Shown here one piece after another: positions 2,474-55,031 of a stretch of 64,000 nucleotides of DNA. Source of the stretch: Desulfurococcales archaeon (GTDB taxonomy: Archaea; Thermoproteota; Thermoprotei_A; Sulfolobales; Desulfurococcaceae); assembly GCA_027022365.1 (NCBI GenBank), contig JALVYU010000011.1, forward strand, positions 99,742-163,741, written 5' to 3'. Below the pieces are notes generated by a model, which was not told the origin of the DNA, made no database searches, and saw nothing but the letters and a program-made list of their open reading frames with translations. Position 1 is the stretch's first letter, and each line of letters opens with the position of its first letter. The position numbers and the translations under genes are program-made.

Positions 2474-3303
2474 TGAGTACACCAGGTGAAACCCCGCCTA
2501 TCCGGTATTATTTGCTCAGGATACTGTTCGCTGGGATAGTAGTACTATCATGTACATGGGTGCTACTACCGATCATAATATCAATACTATATGCCTTCTC
2601 GACGCCACAGGACTTCTACAGCCCCAAAATGATCATCCCGCTACACTACACTCTCTCGAACATCCAGAAACTACTGGCACTTGGAGCGGCTAAGGCAACA
2701 ATGAACAGCATAATAGTCGCGGTAATGACTGTGATCTTCAGTTTCGCGCTCGGGCTACCCGCCGGGTACGCGTTCGCTAGATTCGCCTTCAAGGGCAAGG
2801 ACTCGTTGAAGCTGCTGATTATAGGGCTGAGAATGTTCCCGATGCTGGTCATCGCTGTCCCGCTGGTAACACTATATATTAGGCTCGGCCTCAACGATAC
2901 ATTGCTCGGTGTAGCATTAGCACATACCACCATGGCCCTCCCCTTCGTCATACTGATCACCTCGAGCATATTCGTCAGCGTACCAATAGAGCTCGAGGAA
3001 GCAGGCTACGTCTTCGGTCTCGACAGGAAGCAGACATTCCTAAGGATAACGCTGCCCCTAGCCCTTCCGGGACTAACCGCGGCCGCAATCTTCACTTTCA
3101 TAATGTCCTGGAACGAAGTATTCATGGCGGCAGTACTTACACTAACGAACAGGACGTTGCCAGCATTCATACTGACATCGGCGATGGCGGCGCCCGATAT
3201 AATTAAGTTCGCGGCATCATTCATAATGATCCTACCTGCACTGATCTTCGTATTCATCGCTCGTAAGTACCTCATATCCATGTGGGGTATAACCGTGAAA
3301 TAA
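2473..3303 (+). CDS. Sugar ABC transporter permease 2 (MalG-like)
   Basis: This 276-residue protein is the second permease of the importer, with about six membrane helices. The EAA motif reads ELEEAGYVFGLDRKQTFLRI, followed by TLPLALPG, as in MalG and LacG relatives. The GTG start overlaps the previous stop (GTAGTGAG context), which fixes the start. The ATPase gene follows 11 bases after the stop. The short N-terminal cytoplasmic segment and the single EAA loop are normal for the family. Confidence 0.9.
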   Translation: MSTPGETPPIRYYLLRILFAGIVVLSCTWVLLPIIISILYAFSTPQDFYSPKMIIPLHYTLSNIQKLLALGAAKATMNSIIVAVMTVIFSFALGLPAGYAFARFAFKGKDSLKLLIIGLRMFPMLVIAVPLVTLYIRLGLNDTLLGVALAHTTMALPFVILITSSIFVSVPIELEEAGYVFGLDRKQTFLRITLPLALPGLTAAAIFTFIMSWNEVFMAAVLTLTNRTLPAFILTSAMAAPDIIKFAASFIMILPALIFVFIARKYLISMWGITVK

Positions 3304-3314
3304 GGGTGAGGAAA

Positions 3315-4412
3315 ATGGTGGATGTTAAGCTAAGAGGTCTCGTTAAAAGGTTCGGTAAAACGGTAGCACTAAGAGGCATAGACCTGGATATAAGGGATGG
3401 CGAGTTCATCGTCCTCCTAGGCCCATCAGGATGCGGAAAAACAACAACGCTCAGAATCATAGCTGGTCTTGAGAAGCCGGATGAAGGCAGGGTATTGTTC
3501 GGCGAGAAAGACGTGACTTACCTGCCGCCTAAAGACAGGAATGTCTCCATGGTTTTCCAGAGCTATGCCGTCTGGCCCCACATGAAGGTTAGAGACAATA
3601 TTGCCTTCCCACTCAAAATAAGGGGTGTCCCGCAGGAAGAGATCGATAAGAGGGTCAAGTGGGCGGCCGAACTACTCCAGATAGACGAGCTACTCGACAG
3701 GTACCCGCACCAGCTGAGCGGTGGGCAGAGGCAAAGGGTAGCAGTAGCCCGTGCAATAGTCATAGAGCCGGATGTACTACTCATGGACGAGCCTCTGAGC
3801 AACCTAGACGCATTACTAAGGGTTAAGATGAGGAGCGAGCTCAAGAAACTACAGCGCCGCATCGGCGTCACAACGATCTATGTCACCCACGACCAGGTAG
3901 AGGCAATGACGATGGGAGACAGAATAGCAGTAATGAATGCTGGCAAGATACAACAAGTTGGTACACCGGAAGAAATATACTTGAAGCCCGCAAACACGTT
4001 CGTGGCGGGATTCGTCGGCTCGCCTCAAATGAACTTCTTCGACGCAACAGTCAGGCTGGACGGAGAAAAACTATTGGATGCGGGTGAGTTCACTATCTCG
4101 TTGAGCGACGACCTAGCCGCGGCGCTTAAAGACTATAATAATAAGACCGTAATTGTCGGTATAAGGCCCGAGTACATGTATCCACGCGAGCTAGCGCCTA
4201 AAAACATGGTTGGCCCCATGATAAAAGGTGTGATAGACTTCGTCGAGGCGCTGGGAAGCGACACAATTATACATCTTAAAGTAGGGAATAAGCATCTCGT
4301 CATAAAGCTGTCGGGGAGCCATCACTACAGGATCGGAGAGGAACTAGTAGTAGTGTTTAGTCTTGACAAGCTACACATCTTCGACAAGAACACGGGCAGA
4401 GCAATAATATAG
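3315..4412 (+). CDS. Sugar ABC transporter ATP-binding protein (MalK family)
   Basis: This is the cytoplasmic ATPase that drives sugar import. It has a Walker A motif (GPSGCGKTT), Q-loop (VFQSYAVWPH), signature (LSGGQRQRVA), Walker B plus glutamate (LLMDEPLSNLD) and switch histidine (YVTHDQ). The C-terminal 130 residues match the MalK regulatory beta-barrel region (GIRPEYM). I use the ATG at 3315, which has GGTGAGG six bases upstream; an in-frame GTG at 3282 lies inside the preceding gene and adds 11 unlikely residues. It closes the operon with the 207, 1586 and 2473 genes. Confidence 0.93.
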   Translation: MVDVKLRGLVKRFGKTVALRGIDLDIRDGEFIVLLGPSGCGKTTTLRIIAGLEKPDEGRVLFGEKDVTYLPPKDRNVSMVFQSYAVWPHMKVRDNIAFPLKIRGVPQEEIDKRVKWAAELLQIDELLDRYPHQLSGGQRQRVAVARAIVIEPDVLLMDEPLSNLDALLRVKMRSELKKLQRRIGVTTIYVTHDQVEAMTMGDRIAVMNAGKIQQVGTPEEIYLKPANTFVAGFVGSPQMNFFDATVRLDGEKLLDAGEFTISLSDDLAAALKDYNNKTVIVGIRPEYMYPRELAPKNMVGPMIKGVIDFVEALGSDTIIHLKVGNKHLVIKLSGSHHYRIGEELVVVFSLDKLHIFDKNTGRAII

Positions 4413-4436
4413 CTTTCGCCCGTACCCCGCTCTCAG

Positions 4437-4468
4437 CTCAAAACACTCTTTTATCCCTCAAAACACTC
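4437..4468 (+). repeat. 12-bp direct repeat flanking a TATA-like box
   Basis: The sequence CTCAAAACACTC occurs at 4437-4448 and again at 4457-4468, exactly 20 bp apart. Between the copies lies TTTTATCC, which sits about 35 bases before the ATG at 4488 and could be that gene's TATA box. Repeats placed this way could bind a regulator on either side of the pre-initiation complex. Direct reading supports the repeat; its role is inference. Confidence 0.5.
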
Positions 4469-4487
4469 CTAACTAACGTGATCAAGC

Positions 4488-5111
4488 ATGTTTGATGATT
4501 TCAATGAGAGGAATCCCCGCTGGAGACTACGCCATGACGGGGTCTCAAGGATCATTATACAGGATAGTATCTTAAAGCTCTGTATGGGTCCGACCGAGGC
4601 ACTATATTACAGCAACGCGGAGATAAGTGACGGATCCTTCGACGAGCTCATATGGAGCGGTGGAAAACTCTCGTTAAAAGCAAGGTTTACGGGTAACGGA
4701 TACCCCCACTATGGTAGTGCAGGCTTCGGGTTCTGGAACTATAGTATGAGAATAGATCTCAGCTACCCGATATGGTTCATATACCTACGATCAGTGCGTG
4801 GGAGCTACCCTCTTCAAGGATTCTTCATCCAAGTAGGAAACAGGTTCGCGCCAATAATGCTTACCAGATCCATTGGCATATACAAGGCGTTGCTGACCCT
4901 GTTCCCCTTCGCCGCGCCCATAAGGATCCTATCCAGTAAACCAGTAATGCAAGAGATAGATCTTGGAGAGTGGCACACATACACTATAGATTGGTCGGGC
5001 GGGAAAGCCGTATTTCGTATAGATGACCGGGAAATCGCGGATGTAAGCGTAGAATACAGGGGGAGGGCGAGGATAGATGCATGGCTAGATAACGCCGTGT
5101 TCCAGCCCTAG
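4488..5111 (+). CDS. Concanavalin-like beta-sandwich protein (GH16-like)
   Basis: This 207-residue protein has no signal peptide. It resembles the jelly-roll fold of laminarinase-type (GH16) proteins: the stretch GEWHTYTIDWSGGKAVFRID matches the late strands of that fold, where the sequence usually reads H-Y-x-I-x-W followed by a D-G turn. The GH16 catalytic signature E-x-D-x-x-E is not present, so it may be a carbohydrate-binding or diverged hydrolytic protein. It lies 75 bases after the sugar ABC ATPase gene on the same strand, which suggests a role in handling the same carbohydrate. The function is not established. Confidence 0.6.
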   Translation: MFDDFNERNPRWRLRHDGVSRIIIQDSILKLCMGPTEALYYSNAEISDGSFDELIWSGGKLSLKARFTGNGYPHYGSAGFGFWNYSMRIDLSYPIWFIYLRSVRGSYPLQGFFIQVGNRFAPIMLTRSIGIYKALLTLFPFAAPIRILSSKPVMQEIDLGEWHTYTIDWSGGKAVFRIDDREIADVSVEYRGRARIDAWLDNAVFQP

Positions 5112-5225
5112 AGAAACGATCCGGCCTATGTCTACCGACATATAACCCATGAGAACAGGAGAGAGGCGTGCCTCGAGATCGACTGGATCAAGATGGAGTA
5201 ATCCCACGCGTCTCCCGGTAGAGGA

Positions 5226-5233
5226 TTTAAATA
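5226..5233 (+). promoter_or_regulatory. TATA box of the hydrogenase operon
   Basis: TTTAAATA at 5226-5233 lies 31 bases before the ATG at 5265, preceded by purine-rich GAGGA (a possible BRE). The expected start site is only about a dozen bases before the ATG, a short leader as is common in Crenarchaeota. The promoter appears intact although the operon behind it carries indels. Confidence 0.55.
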
Positions 5234-5264
5234 TAAACCAAGATAATTTTACCCGGTAATCATT

Positions 5265-6455
5265 ATGGAAGCGACAGTTATCGATCTCCAACGAGTGGGC
5301 GGTGAAGCAGAGCTATTAGCCTATGATGTGGGCGGGATCGTTGAGAAAGCATACTTCATTACGACAGCACCTGTGAGGGGCTTCGAAAGAATAGTTAAGG
5401 GCAAAAACCCTGTTTTCGCGGTTAACGCTGTTATGAGGATATGCGGTATATGCCATGCAGCACACGGAATAGCGTCGGCCGAGGCAATCGAGGACGCGAT
5501 GGGGGTCTCACCGCCAGCTAATGGCCGCTACCTCAGAGAAACGATAGGATTACTCAACAAGATACAGAGCCACCTAATGCACTTAGTAATGATAATACCT
5601 GACCTCGTCCAAGAGCCTGAAAGGATGAAATACATCGTGGCAACCCTGAATATATTGAATAAAATAAATGATGTCCTGTCAAAACTGGGAGGAAGCCCGA
5701 CACACCCGCCCTATCTAGTGATCGGGGGAGTGAGCCGGGTACCCGACGAAAAACTCTGGCGAAGCTTCTCGAAGAACTAGACAAGCTCATAGAAGAATAT
5801 ATTGGTCTTCGAAGAAGCTTCGAAACAAGTATCTCTAGTAGCGACGTCTACGAGCAACTCAGGGCTAAGAAGCTTAGGCCAAAATATCTTGCATCACATG
5901 TTCTACGGAGACAAGTACAGCATAAGGATCGATAAGATCAGGGTCGTGAGGTACGAGGATATTCACGAGGATCTACCTAGTAGGGCTCGTGAAAACACCT
6001 CAATGATCGCCCTCTATGACGACCAAGTCGTTGAGGCGGGTCCAAGGGCTAGGCTGAACAAGTATTACGACTATAGCGAAGACTCATTATGGGGACTACA
6101 AGAGGCGAGACTCATTGAGATAGAATTATTCCTTAAGAGAACAAGAGAACTGCTTGAGAAAGTCGAGGTAGGAGAGCCAGGCTACTCGAAAGTCCTCGTA
6201 TATAGGTCGGGGAAAGGAACAGGAGTTTTCGAAGCACCGAGAGGAACATTAATCCATAAGGTTGAGCTAGACGATAATGGAAGGATAAGCAAGTACAAGA
6301 TAATCGTGCCCACAATGTTCAATATACCATTAATAGAGCAGGCCGCCCAGGGATTTCCGTCGAAAAACGTTGACGTCGTCCCAAGAATATATGATCCCTG
6401 CATACCCTGCTCCACACATATAATAAGATTAAAAAGGAAGGTGACGAGGCGATGA
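5265..6455 (+). pseudogene. frhA: F420-type [NiFe] hydrogenase large subunit, two compensating frameshifts
   Basis: Both Ni-binding motifs of a group 3 hydrogenase large subunit are present: RICGICHAAHG early and DPCIPCSTH at the end. The reading frame is open from 5265 to a TAG at 5778-5780. The real coding then continues in the -1 frame from the A5 run at 5749-5753 (residues PDEK, then TLAKLLEELDKLIEEY) to about 5867-5872. There it returns to the original frame (YEQLRAK, then SLGQNILHH). One missing A and one extra base would explain this; repaired, the protein is about 396 residues, normal for FrhA. The gene is followed by small and beta subunit genes. Either it is decaying or the sequence has homopolymer errors. 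Confidence 0.85.
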
Positions 6456-50826: not shown

Positions 50827-50902
<76 letters not shown>

Positions 50903-50967: not shown

Positions 50968-52578
50968 CTAATCATATTGTGTGTTAGGCACGTTCTTGTG
51001 GACAGCAACTACGGGGGCATTGCTCCCTTTTAGATGCCGCATTACCAGGCGTACCTGTCCCCTTGAACCCTGTATTGTTACTGGAGCGAACAGGCTCGCC
51101 ACGTAGGTCAGTAGGCTTGCCGCTATGCTCACATAGAATTTGCCGTAGATGCTATCGGTTCCGAGCGGTTTATCGCTGTGACCAATATAGGCGCAGGCGA
51201 CCTTGCCGCGGCAGACGTTGAGGGTTTGCCATGCAGTGTAGGCTTTACGGTCGGCGGTTATGAGGAGTATGCGTGGCTCATTGAGGTTGGGGGCTTCGAC
51301 GGCTATGGCTGCTTCGCATGGCTGTGCCGTCGCGGCGAGGCATTTCGCGTCGTAATAATATTTTGTCTCGAGCAAACACCTGTTGGCCAGGAGTGCGAGA
51401 GTATAGGGTATCCTCTGCTGTATTCCCGCATCCGGATCGGTCTCGGCGACCTTGCCGTTTATCTCGGCCTCGGCGCACCGCGGAATATAGATTGCCAGCC
51501 CCCTTATAGGGGCCCAGGGGTTTCCGGAGCGTATGCTTGCCTTGAGCAAAGCCATGTTGAGGCCCTGATAGAACAAGTTGGTGTCGGGAATCAATGCTAG
51601 CCTACCGGTCTTATCGCTAACGTACCTAAGTAGGACGCGGTGGAGCTTCTCCCCAACATTATCAAACCAGCCACTGCTGGCGGACTCCTTGATAATCAGG
51701 TCTGCTGCTCCTACATATCGCTGGAGCTGCATAAGCATCCTGTCAAGGCTTTGCCTATCCTGGTAGATAGGCTCGAGTACATCTGCTATCTTCTTCCAAG
51801 CACTATAGATCATGCTCGCCGTGTCCTCGTCCGGGCCCCCCAACTCGTCTATGCTGAAGAGCTTAGCCCTCTTAGAGCTACTGGTCAGAGAACTTATCCA
51901 TGCTTCCAGCTTATAGCCCTTCGATACGTGTTTACGTACACCCATACTAACTGTCTCCCTACACCCACAGCTGGTGAGGCTGTTGAAGATCTTCGCTACG
52001 CCAATATATATTCCACGGGTCCCCCTCCACTCGATGATCCGGGGATACTCCTCCACTAATGGCTCATCGTAGCCACTTATGTCCTCCCCCATAACATATA
52101 CCCGGTGAAGCCACCGGGGGCTCCCGGGATAAGCCGGTATGCCGTACATTGGTATGGTGTTGACGACTGTGTAGATAGTTTTTCCCCGTAGTTCGTGGGA
52201 CGAGACATATATTATTGATGCCGCCGTACTACCGCTAGCCCCTGTCAGGTCAATTATTATCTTCTTATCATCCAGAGAATCTATGAGTCTTTTAAACCTA
52301 ATAGCAGTGTCAAACACGTTGTCGTTGATCACATGCCCCCCATAGTGATAGTCAACTATAATCCTCAGATCCATACTCCTGACATGATTTATCCCATCTT
52401 CGATAAAAGGCTTGGCGTGCATGTCTGTGATCAGCACAAAATCCCGGATGCCAAGCTCTTCGCTTATCCTCCCAAGAATAGTTGGTGCAAGCCAGGGATG
52501 TTTATCGAGAACAACTATGCCTACACGATCACCGGTTATTGACTCCCTTATCTTATCGAGAAGCTCCTCGCTCACCAA
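50968..52578 (-). CDS. CARF-like sensor fused to a PIN nuclease domain
   Basis: This 536-residue protein is not a standard family member. Residues 18-165 form a Rossmann-like domain with IVVLDKHPWLAPTILGRISE, FVLITDMHA and IIIDLTGASGSTAASIIYVS. The D-x-T-G-x-x-x-S/T pattern after a beta strand (Asp110, Thr112, Gly113) is like the D-x-T-G-G-T-K motif of CARF domains that bind cyclic oligoadenylates. A helical middle (220-320) follows. Residues 326-485 look like a PIN RNase: LALIPDTNLFYQGL (Asp332), IPRCAEAEI (Glu370/372) and LLITADRKAYTAW (Asp443). No CRISPR genes are present. It could be a ligand-gated RNase. The start is TTG 52578 or GTG 52575. Confidence 0.6.
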   Translation of the reverse strand: MVSEELLDKIRESITGDRVGIVVLDKHPWLAPTILGRISEELGIRDFVLITDMHAKPFIEDGINHVRSMDLRIIVDYHYGGHVINDNVFDTAIRFKRLIDSLDDKKIIIDLTGASGSTAASIIYVSSHELRGKTIYTVVNTIPMYGIPAYPGSPRWLHRVYVMGEDISGYDEPLVEEYPRIIEWRGTRGIYIGVAKIFNSLTSCGCRETVSMGVRKHVSKGYKLEAWISSLTSSSKRAKLFSIDELGGPDEDTASMIYSAWKKIADVLEPIYQDRQSLDRMLMQLQRYVGAADLIIKESASSGWFDNVGEKLHRVLLRYVSDKTGRLALIPDTNLFYQGLNMALLKASIRSGNPWAPIRGLAIYIPRCAEAEINGKVAETDPDAGIQQRIPYTLALLANRCLLETKYYYDAKCLAATAQPCEAAIAVEAPNLNEPRILLITADRKAYTAWQTLNVCRGKVACAYIGHSDKPLGTDSIYGKFYVSIAASLLTYVASLFAPVTIQGSRGQVRLVMRHLKGSNAPVVAVHKNVPNTQYD

Positions 52579-52748: not shown

Positions 52749-53330
52749 TTGGAAACAATTAACCCGCAAATAATAAAGAGTAAGGCCGAGGCGAAAATAA
52801 TCGATCTCTACAGAGTAATGAACTGCACTATCTGGCTCATGGACTCAAGCAGCAGGATCTATGGCAGGCTATCAGACGATATAGCATTACCCTACAGTAG
52901 GACACTAAATGTAGTATCCGAGGAGACGAAAAACAGTGCAGAGCTCCTCAAAATCCTTCTTGACGACTTACTCCACATGCAATATAATGGTTCATCCTGC
53001 CGAAACATACTGGAAAACAAAGGACTAGTCACAACTACACTGATCCTGCTAGACAGGATAATCGATCCAGAAAAGATAACTATTGAGGAAGCCCTATGGA
53101 TGCTCCAGCAAATGCTGGGTCTCGAGGGAAGCATGGGTGTCGATAGGTATGTCTCCGAGATCCTGCCAAGCATAAAGGCATCTCTAAGACTCCTAGACAG
53201 CAGACGGACAGCTTACTGGGAAGCAGTACTAGATTATATCGCCTCTAAGCATGAAAACCATTTAGTGGTACTGGCCGAAACCTACCGCCTACTTATGGAT
53301 GACCTGCTGTCTTTGTGGAGGCCGGATTAA
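52749..53330 (+). CDS. Hypothetical helical protein
   Basis: I do not recognise this 193-residue protein, which appears almost entirely helical (for example SAELLKILLDDLLHMQYNG and EEALWMLQQMLGLEG). It starts at TTG 52749 with no visible Shine-Dalgarno; GTGTTTTAAGT just upstream may serve as promoter. It is divergent from the CARF-like/PIN gene (170 bases apart). Its TAA shares the tetramer TTAA with the stop of the convergent PA14 gene. Confidence 0.5.
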   Translation: METINPQIIKSKAEAKIIDLYRVMNCTIWLMDSSSRIYGRLSDDIALPYSRTLNVVSEETKNSAELLKILLDDLLHMQYNGSSCRNILENKGLVTTTLILLDRIIDPEKITIEEALWMLQQMLGLEGSMGVDRYVSEILPSIKASLRLLDSRRTAYWEAVLDYIASKHENHLVVLAETYRLLMDDLLSLWRPD

Positions 53331-54076
53331 CCAATAATACTTATCTTGATCTCATCCCCGCCCCAAAGGAGCATTGGCTGGCCGGTCTCATGTATAATTT
53401 CTCCACTGGGACTAAGCACACGTATAACTGCCTTTAACGGCATCTCTTCGAAGCCGGCCTTCACACTGCATACGCCGTGCACAGAGACGCATCTCTTACG
53501 AGGCAGCTCTGCCGGCAAAACCTCGACGATATAACCATTAGGGACGTCGGTGAAGAGGATCGTGTCGCTTACGGGATAATAGTATGTCTCCTTGGGGATA
53601 ACTCCCGCCTGGCCTTTAGGCGGTATCCAGCCCAGTATTGCTTCGGCGAACTTATACCTGTTATAGAAATAGTATTTCAGTCTATGATAGCCTGCCTCGA
53701 GCATTACTGGTTCACTAATATACGTGGTCGGGCTCTGATCCCTCCAGGCATCTATTATCAGCTTATCATCTATCCAGACCCTGCTCCCATCGTCCGTTGT
53801 AATATAGAACCTGTAGAGCCCTGTATGAGGTACACGTATGAATCCTTTCCAGACGATCGCAAAGTACTCGGCGGGGACGTCCTCTGCGGGTTTATCCCAC
53901 CAGGTATAGTTTATCCATGGGAGAATATCTTCTCTTAGAGGTTCTAGCTTTTCGAGATCATCAGGCGGCATCTCACCGCTCCATTTATAGTATAGCGTCT
54001 TGACGCCCTGTACGAGTCCCTCCTTAACCTTAATAATAACTGCTCTAGGCACAGACAACGAGCTTACAACCCCCAA
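53327..54076 (-). CDS. PA14-domain protein without a signal peptide
   Basis: Residues about 25-155 form a PA14 beta-barrel: GFIRVPHTGLYRFYITTDDG, SRVWIDDKLIIDAWRDQSP and LEAGYHRLKYYFYNRYKFAE. The T-D-D-G and paired acids are the usual calcium/carbohydrate site of PA14 lectin domains. The remaining 90 residues are beta-rich and not recognised. There is no signal peptide or membrane helix, which is unusual for a PA14 protein. It starts at TTG 54076. The function is unknown; glycan binding is the best guess. Confidence 0.72.
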   Translation of the reverse strand: MGVVSSLSVPRAVIIKVKEGLVQGVKTLYYKWSGEMPPDDLEKLEPLREDILPWINYTWWDKPAEDVPAEYFAIVWKGFIRVPHTGLYRFYITTDDGSRVWIDDKLIIDAWRDQSPTTYISEPVMLEAGYHRLKYYFYNRYKFAEAILGWIPPKGQAGVIPKETYYYPVSDTILFTDVPNGYIVEVLPAELPRKRCVSVHGVCSVKAGFEEMPLKAVIRVLSPSGEIIHETGQPMLLWGGDEIKISIIG

Positions 54077-54215
54077 ACAGTATTATCAACATAGATATTA
54101 CGGGGCCCTAGGTTTTTAATAGGTGGGATATATCGTTTTCTTCAAACCACAATCATTATATCCCCGTATAACAACCATTACTTTCCAAAATAGTTGTTTC
54201 TGAGAGGTGATAGAA

Positions 54216-55031
54216 GTGCCGACAGTTTCACCGAAACTCCTAGAAGAAGTTGTGAACACCAATACATTCCTCCGCACAGCATATCGTGTACTAGTCAGGG
54301 ATCCCGAGGTAAGGACGCTCTGGGAGATGAGCAACGTAATGGCTGTCAAGAGACTGAAATACAATGACCACGGTCCAGTACACGCTATAATTGCGGCGGG
54401 AGCAGCTGTCTACCTCTACAAGCTATTGAGAGAAGCAGGCGTCGAGTCAAGCCTCGTGAGAGACAGAGTGGTCAATGATCCGGAGCTGGCATGGATAGTA
54501 CCACTGTACGGTGCTCTCCTCCACGATGTAGGAAACGCCATACACAGGGATCTACACGAGAAGCTTGGGAGTCTTCTCGCTAAACCAATAATCGACCGGG
54601 CGCTCGCAAAGATCATAAGCGATTATGAGACAAGGATCAGGCTAAGGCAAGAAATAATGCATAGCATACACTGCACAGCCTACGATGCCGAGTGCCTGAC
54701 AATAGAGGCCGGATGCGTAGCGGTCGGGGACGGCCTAGATATGGCTGAGGGGAGAGCAAGAGTACCATATAGGCTCGGAGGCATATCAATACACCATATA
54801 TCGGCTCTCAGCATAAAGAAGGTCGAGATACAGAAGGGTGACGAAGTACCGATAAAGATACTAGTACATATGACGGAGAGAGCGGGGATATTCCAAGTAG
54901 ACGAGGTACTCATGCCGAAGCTCAAGACGACTCCGCTAAAGGATCTTGTAGAGATATATGCTATAATCGACGGAGAAACCCTGAAAACATATACCCCATA
55001 CAAGCAGTCATCTCCTAAGCAGGTATCTTAG
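54216..55031 (+). CDS. HD-domain phosphohydrolase
   Basis: This protein of about 271 residues has an HD metal-dependent phosphohydrolase core. The first His is in KYNDHGPVHAII, the H-D pair in YGALLHDVGNAIHRD, a later His in HSIHCTAYD, and the C-terminal Asp is probably in VGDGLDMAEG. Relatives hydrolyse nucleotides or cyclic dinucleotides. I prefer GTG 54216 with GAGGTGAT four bases upstream over GTG 54207. Its end overlaps the convergent flippase gene by 24 bases. The substrate is unknown. Confidence 0.83.
   Translation: MPTVSPKLLEEVVNTNTFLRTAYRVLVRDPEVRTLWEMSNVMAVKRLKYNDHGPVHAIIAAGAAVYLYKLLREAGVESSLVRDRVVNDPELAWIVPLYGALLHDVGNAIHRDLHEKLGSLLAKPIIDRALAKIISDYETRIRLRQEIMHSIHCTAYDAECLTIEAGCVAVGDGLDMAEGRARVPYRLGGISIHHISALSIKKVEIQKGDEVPIKILVHMTERAGIFQVDEVLMPKLKTTPLKDLVEIYAIIDGETLKTYTPYKQSSPKQVS

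Follow-up and report, generated by a model that had tools for sequence, protein, structure and literature searches.

Proteins in which a CARF domain is joined to a nuclease are usually read as receptors for the signal that Cas10 of type III CRISPR systems makes. In Csx1/Csm6 the CARF sensor is combined with a HEPN RNase. Two CARF families carry a PIN domain instead, according to a 2014 survey (PMC4012209), and the CARF domain of RtcR has a non-CRISPR ligand, as outlined in the account of that protein (PMC7790460). Here we describe a CARF–PIN gene from a 64,000-nucleotide stretch of the genome of a Desulfurococcales archaeon (contig JALVYU010000011.1, positions 99,742 to 163,741), which is called the window throughout. 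Like Csx1/Csm6, the window protein unites a CARF sensor with an RNase domain, which is a predicted PIN RNase here and HEPN there. It differs from RtcR, a transcription activator with an AAA+ domain and no RNase. We regard the window protein, at a probability of roughly 0.55, as a predicted ligand-gated RNase that works outside type III CRISPR. The signal that it answers probably does not come from CRISPR, because four relatives keep an intact CARF–PIN gene without any of the Cas markers that were searched.

Architecture, family and fold

The gene was proposed in a first-pass annotation, made from the DNA letters and the translated open reading frames, as a candidate CARF-like/PIN fusion. The reading frame was recovered on the minus strand, and both halves of the proposal stand. 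The protein is a full-length match to model PDLC01979 (CARF_m12–CARF_PIN) of PADLOC-DB 2.0.0 (E 3e-201; residues 5-528 align with positions 9-530 of a profile of 533), so that the two-domain architecture is already catalogued. The N-terminus was assigned to CARF and to no other Rossmann family by profile. Our alignment A1 combines the window protein with 39 of the 42 homologues, with P0001 and P0002 (near-identical) and P0042 (short) left out; all 40 proteins match the same PADLOC profile. The window protein is thus a member of CARF_m12–CARF_PIN by profile, and no difference was found. The model stands for the name of an architecture, without tested function, and the m12 and m3 names reportedly originate from a 2020 classification of CARF proteins. 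No family was assigned to the 536-aa protein by Pfam or NCBIfam.

The structure model of the window protein (predicted local distance difference test, pLDDT, 91.7) displays a Rossmann-like CARF fold and a PIN fold. Its best fold match extends across both domains and belongs to SiRe_0806 from Sulfolobus islandicus, which is deposited in the apo form (PDB 9jxw) and with bound cyclic tetra-adenylate (cA4; PDB 9jxx). A CARF receptor joined to a PIN nuclease is therefore predicted, in the same layout as the protein crystallised with cA4. Sequence identity between the two proteins is 13%. Single-sequence and profile queries against a library of PDB chains, in which the inclusion of the SiRe_0806 entry is unconfirmed, returned chance matches only, and the relation to SiRe_0806 is for this reason one of fold alone. 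In a literature search no paper was found on SiRe_0806, nor on CARF–PIN in Desulfurococcales, and earlier statements on its distribution may exist.

A second family with both domains, CARF_m3–CARF_PIN (S. tokodaii STK_00350 and its relatives), is homologous to the window family. The profile-profile alignment covers 379 columns with an E-value of 2e-20, and the hhalign alignment spans the middle region too. The motifs YPxxP, DTN, E, C(D/E) and TxD are common to the m3 proteins and the window protein. The m3 proteins are shorter in the rows seen and differ in the strand-4 motif, in which R/K is present in 8 of the 17 aligned m3 rows (alignment A2; of the 20 loci fetched, 17 were used, and L078, L079 and L083 were left out as truncated or in the wrong frame). 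The model of a Sulfolobales m3 protein was poor (pLDDT 66), and its top fold match, again SiRe_0806, lends weak support only. A rare CARF–PIN protein of Sulfolobus tengchongensis (L072:6756-8054) possesses the canonical DLTGGTK motif. It was first considered as the orthologue of SiRe_0806, which is not claimed here; the search returned three proteins including itself.

Conserved residues of the two domains

The acidic residues to which the first-pass annotation had pointed in the PIN domain, namely D332, E370, E372 and D443, proved invariant in all 40 rows of alignment A1. Its list missed the equally invariant E422, which is a candidate for a further catalytic acid. The same annotation had likened a D-x-T-G-x-x-x-S motif to the ligand site of CARF domains. 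This motif occurs once in the protein, at residues 110-117, and D110 lies within strand 106-113 of the structure model. The motif alone proves little, because it turns up in 39 of 5000 shuffled versions of the protein. The alignment bears out only part of it. D110 is present in 40 of 40 rows, and position 112 holds T in 34 rows and S in six, while G113 is G in only 25 of the 40.

The frequent CARF signature after strand 4 is [DN]x[ST]xxx[RK], as the 2014 survey gives it (PMC4012209). Its [DN]x[ST] part is found in every row of the window family through D110 and T/S112. The basic position of the signature is occupied by G (33 rows), S (6) or A (1), and no K or R is located within 12 residues in any of the 40 rows. 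CARF families without the basic residue may bind other ligands, according to the survey's remarks on them (PMC4012209). The missing residue is nevertheless not decisive, because Csx1 from the window's own genome, with N at this position when read by eye, is also without it. Further invariant positions in the CARF domain are R37, E40, E41, D76, P148, Y150, P151, P154, W156 and H158. The invariant CARF residues (R37, E40, D76, H158 and others) may line the ligand pocket, and the conserved Y150–H158 loop likely lies beside it.

Distribution against type III and Cas markers

CARF–PIN was found in 29 of the 214 genomes of the order, with strong matches in 23 and weak partial ones in six. All of the strong ones fall within the window's family, which is represented by 40 genomes, and the gene is missing from the other 17. 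Good genomes, defined by at least 90% completeness and at most 5% contamination, number 23 in the family; CARF–PIN is present in 15 of them and missing from eight. Three CARF–PIN matches are found in one draft genome (G059, contigs C202, C242 and C252), which is possibly a strain mixture.

Type III marks were found in 16 of the 40 family genomes by the union of the Cas10 palm domain (PF22335, 12 genomes), RAMPs (PF03787, 13) and the PADLOC Cas10 model (11). Ten genomes possess both CARF–PIN and a type III mark, 13 CARF–PIN alone, six a mark alone and 11 neither (Fisher p 0.75). The good genomes fall into the same classes as 5, 10, 2 and 6 (p 1.0). With a type III mark in 10 of 23 CARF–PIN carriers vs 6 of 17 non-carriers, no co-occurrence was found. 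The searches for DevR, Cas6, Csx1 and SMODS covered the 15 good CARF–PIN genomes. As a control, Csx1 was detected there in four of the five genomes with type III, the miss being G069, and in none of the ten without (p 0.004). Csx1 thus tracks type III in the 15 genomes examined, whereas CARF–PIN does not.

A Cas marker is located on the same contig as CARF–PIN in seven genomes, at a distance of at least 153 kb in six of them. The type III marks that share a contig with CARF–PIN (G074 and G075) are at least 443 kb away. A Csx1 fragment with four internal stops was noticed in G075 (G075:C1:330110-330493), together with another Csx1 without stops. On contig C65 of genome G093 (L063:392-2196), Cas6 and an HD-domain Cas3-like open reading frame, the latter judged by eye, are found about 7 kb from CARF–PIN.

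Genomes without Cas markers, inheritance and selection

In four of the 15 good CARF–PIN genomes (G055, G057, G078 and G081), the searches for Cas1, DevR/Cas7, Cas6, RAMP, Cas10 (either model) and Csx1 all gave no match. Two of these are single-contig genomes, G055 with 1,307,099 bp and G081 with 1,305,106 bp. All 23 CARF–PIN genomes retain the listed residues of both domains; the copy in G093 contains a run of N inside the gene. Four pairs with a finite dS include a Cas-free genome, and their ratios of nonsynonymous to synonymous substitution rates (dN/dS) are 0.049, 0.051, 0.098 and 0.106, three of them at a dS above 2; in a fifth pair of this kind dS is saturated. Among close relatives of the window gene the ratio is 0.02-0.06, with one further relative saturated. 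CARF–PIN is under purifying selection, with dN/dS of about 0.02–0.11 where measurable. Every CARF family includes genes unlinked to CRISPR-Cas, as the 2014 survey has it (PMC4012209).

A maximum-likelihood tree was constructed from 23 CARF–PIN proteins, one from each of the 23 family genomes (one of the three copies in G059), and one outgroup. Seven genera are represented by at least two rows, and each of them occupies one branch; six of these branches are strongly supported and one, g5, weakly. CARF–PIN is inherited genus-wise, and gene order is kept within genera.

A cyclase of the cyclic-oligonucleotide-based antiphage signalling system (CBASS) type was considered as the source of a signal. 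The Pfam SMODS domain matched in all 15 genomes searched, above the cut-off in 12. This candidate was dropped because both of the proteins checked (L093:152-1564 and L094:970-2370) are CCA-adding enzymes. Since SMODS matches archaeal CCA-adding enzymes, it may overcount CBASS cyclases in archaea.

CRISPR loci in the host genome

The first-pass annotation saw no CRISPR locus in sight, which holds for the window as searched but not for the genome. The window belongs to contig C11, and the own-genome matches to Cas1, Cas10, RAMP, DevR, Cas6 and Csx1 are all located off this contig. A type III-A locus is present on contig C31 (L003:5215-18915), with csm2, csm3, csm4, csm5, cas10, Csx1 (CARF9–HEPN), a CARF7 protein, cas6 and a Cas7d-like gene; CARF–PIN is not beside it. 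The 969-aa product of cas10 contains the HD motif LLHDIGK and also GGDD, as read by eye. Because of the GGDD motif, a source of cyclic oligoadenylate is likely in the host cell. Contig C39 (6.3 kb; L004:1459-2431 and 2698-6128) carries cas1 and Csa3, and adjacent to them lies an array of 15 repeats at a spacing of 62-71 nt. Cas4-like and Cas2-like open reading frames were also recognised by eye on C39.

Gene surroundings in the window and in relatives

The features of the CARF–PIN gene and its immediate neighbours are given in Table 1. The tRNA-Ala gene was located where the first-pass annotation had placed it, next to CARF–PIN, and among the stretches scanned the two genes adjoin in the window's genus only. 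An LmuA identity of the 193-aa neighbour was tried and rejected, with a very weak match (E 7e-4) that is not usable. A PA14-domain protein (53327-54076) and an HD-domain protein (54207-55031) are also encoded near CARF–PIN in the window.

Table 1. Positions of the CARF–PIN gene, its domains and residues, and adjacent genes in the window.
Feature	Position	Strand	Remarks
CARF–PIN gene	50968..52578	minus	536 aa, TTG start; 42 homologues
CARF domain	52057..52536	minus	residues about 15-174
D110-L-T-G-A-S-G-S117, after CARF strand 4	52228..52251	minus	basic residue of published signature missing
Conserved loop Y150-P-x-x-P-x-W-x-H158	52105..52131	minus	Y150, P151, P154, W156, H158 invariant 40/40
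Middle region between domains	51604..52056	minus	residues 175-325; invariant W184, N199, E208
PIN domain	51163..51603	minus	residues about 326-472
PIN acid D332 (PDTN)	51583..51585	minus	invariant 40/40
PIN acids E370 and E372	51463..51471	minus	invariant 40/40
Candidate PIN acid E422 (PCE)	51313..51315	minus	invariant 40/40; putative catalytic role
PIN acid D443 (TAD)	51250..51252	minus	invariant 40/40
tRNA-Ala (cgc)	50827..50902	minus	65 nt beyond CARF–PIN stop codon, same strand
Divergent 193-aa neighbour	52749-53330		without Pfam family; relatives only within genus among stretches compared

The gene-order comparison lists 19 of 28 stretches. Gene order is common within genera and partly between them, and it is identical around CARF–PIN in G080 and G081, which are without type III, and in G082, which has it. 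The small gene c1 and the genes c2 and c17 recur near CARF–PIN in several genera, though not in all, and were rejected as conserved partners. Nine neighbour families from relatives were searched with Pfam, and seven of these together with three window neighbours with PADLOC. Pfam identified, among others, a TFX regulator, a cytidylyltransferase and a carboxymuconolactone decarboxylase-family protein, and a helicase was recognised by eye. For the ten neighbours searched with PADLOC there was a single match, which is very weak.

Proposed function and alternatives

For a ligand-gated RNase outside type III, we infer dimerisation, ligand binding, activation, an RNA substrate and growth arrest. Two CARF domains would pair and bind a small nucleotide or oligonucleotide end that is not made by Cas10. 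The bound ligand would cause the middle region to rearrange, and a metal-dependent PIN site composed of D332, E370/E372, E422 and D443 would thereby be activated. Cleavage of cellular RNA by this site would in turn retard growth during stress or infection.

Several observations weigh against this proposal. The closest solved structure, SiRe_0806, is deposited with cA4, which is a type III signal, and PIN RNases are placed among the effectors activated by cyclic oligoadenylates in a 2025 classification (PMC12669027). A source of cA4 is at hand in the window's own genome, with its GGDD Cas10 and Csx1. The absence of Cas genes is derived from profile searches, by which divergent genes can be missed, and in the control with S. 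acidocaldarius DevR gave no match. The SMODS search in the 15 good CARF–PIN genomes turned up no alternative signal maker. Furthermore, Cas1 is associated with CARF–PIN. In good genomes it is present in 9 of 15 carriers vs 0 of 8 non-carriers (p 0.007), and over the 40 family genomes in 12 of 23 vs 3 of 17 (p 0.046). This association is confounded by ancestry, since a single genus accounts for six of the eight good genomes that lack CARF–PIN, yet it is possibly real. In G093, Cas6 and DevR are located 6.8 kb and 12.9 kb from CARF–PIN on one contig. The genes in between are ordinary (a transporter and others, by eye) and partly common with G069. This is a type I neighbourhood, not a type III one, and the sole such case among the 23 genomes for the markers compared.

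The window protein could instead be an ancillary effector of type III CRISPR that acts in trans, in which case a Cas10 encoded elsewhere in the genome makes cA4, cA4 binds CARF, and the PIN RNase is activated. The fold match over both domains to the cA4-bound SiRe_0806, the position of PIN RNases in the 2025 classification, and the host's III-A locus with Cas10, Csx1 and the CARF7 protein all speak for it. In the 2014 survey, effector-bearing CARF proteins are strongly tied to type III, and only 9 of 145 CARF-bearing genomes are without both cas1 and cas10 (PMC4012209). However, CARF–PIN shows no co-occurrence with type III whereas Csx1 does, and four good genomes are without any Cas marker searched. 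The signature basic residue is also missing from all 40 rows, a weak point since the host's Csx1 is without it too. The first-pass annotation had offered two choices, a CRISPR ancillary effector acting at a distance or a separate system. The lack of co-occurrence and the four marker-free genomes weaken the former, which we judge rather unlikely, and the latter fits better. Activation by cA4 where Cas10 is present might coexist with a ligand-gated RNase outside type III, but it would not be sufficient, because the upkeep of CARF–PIN in Cas-free lineages stays unexplained by it.

Genus-wise inheritance and purifying selection would also suit a housekeeping PIN enzyme of RNA processing, whose CARF domain is now structural or RNA-binding and gates nothing by a small ligand. 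The many invariant residues outside the strand-4 motif and the lack of a basic residue after strand 4 agree with such a role. A housekeeping enzyme is nonetheless improbable with the CARF fold and D110 retained, and with a gene that is not essential across the family, as it is missing from 17 of 40 genomes and from eight of the 23 good ones. Very improbable, finally, is a CARF domain that senses broken RNA ends in the manner of RtcR, with PIN clearing or further cutting the RNA. The ligand of RtcR CARF is a tRNA fragment with a terminal 2',3'-cyclic phosphate, in the published account (PMC7790460), and the RtcR family is mostly without the basic residue after strand 4 in the survey's description (PMC4012209), as is the window family. 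But among the neighbours inspected, part of which were tested, none was recognised as an rtc-type gene, and the adjoining tRNA-Ala is confined to the window's genus.

Implications

For the ligand-gated RNase outside type III, a wider role may be put forward tentatively. CARF_m12–PIN could be the receptor and executioner of a Cas10-independent nucleotide alarm in archaea, a core stress or antiviral pathway of Desulfurococcaceae in which a separate synthetase makes the signal and PIN cuts cellular RNA. Type III systems would then have shared or borrowed this type of receptor and not invented it. The CARF–PIN fusion retains its catalytic residues in good genomes in which the searches gave no Cas marker. 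Should this hold, CARF ligands in archaea must come from a second source or be of a second kind, an idea that is directly testable in the two single-contig genomes that lack Cas markers.
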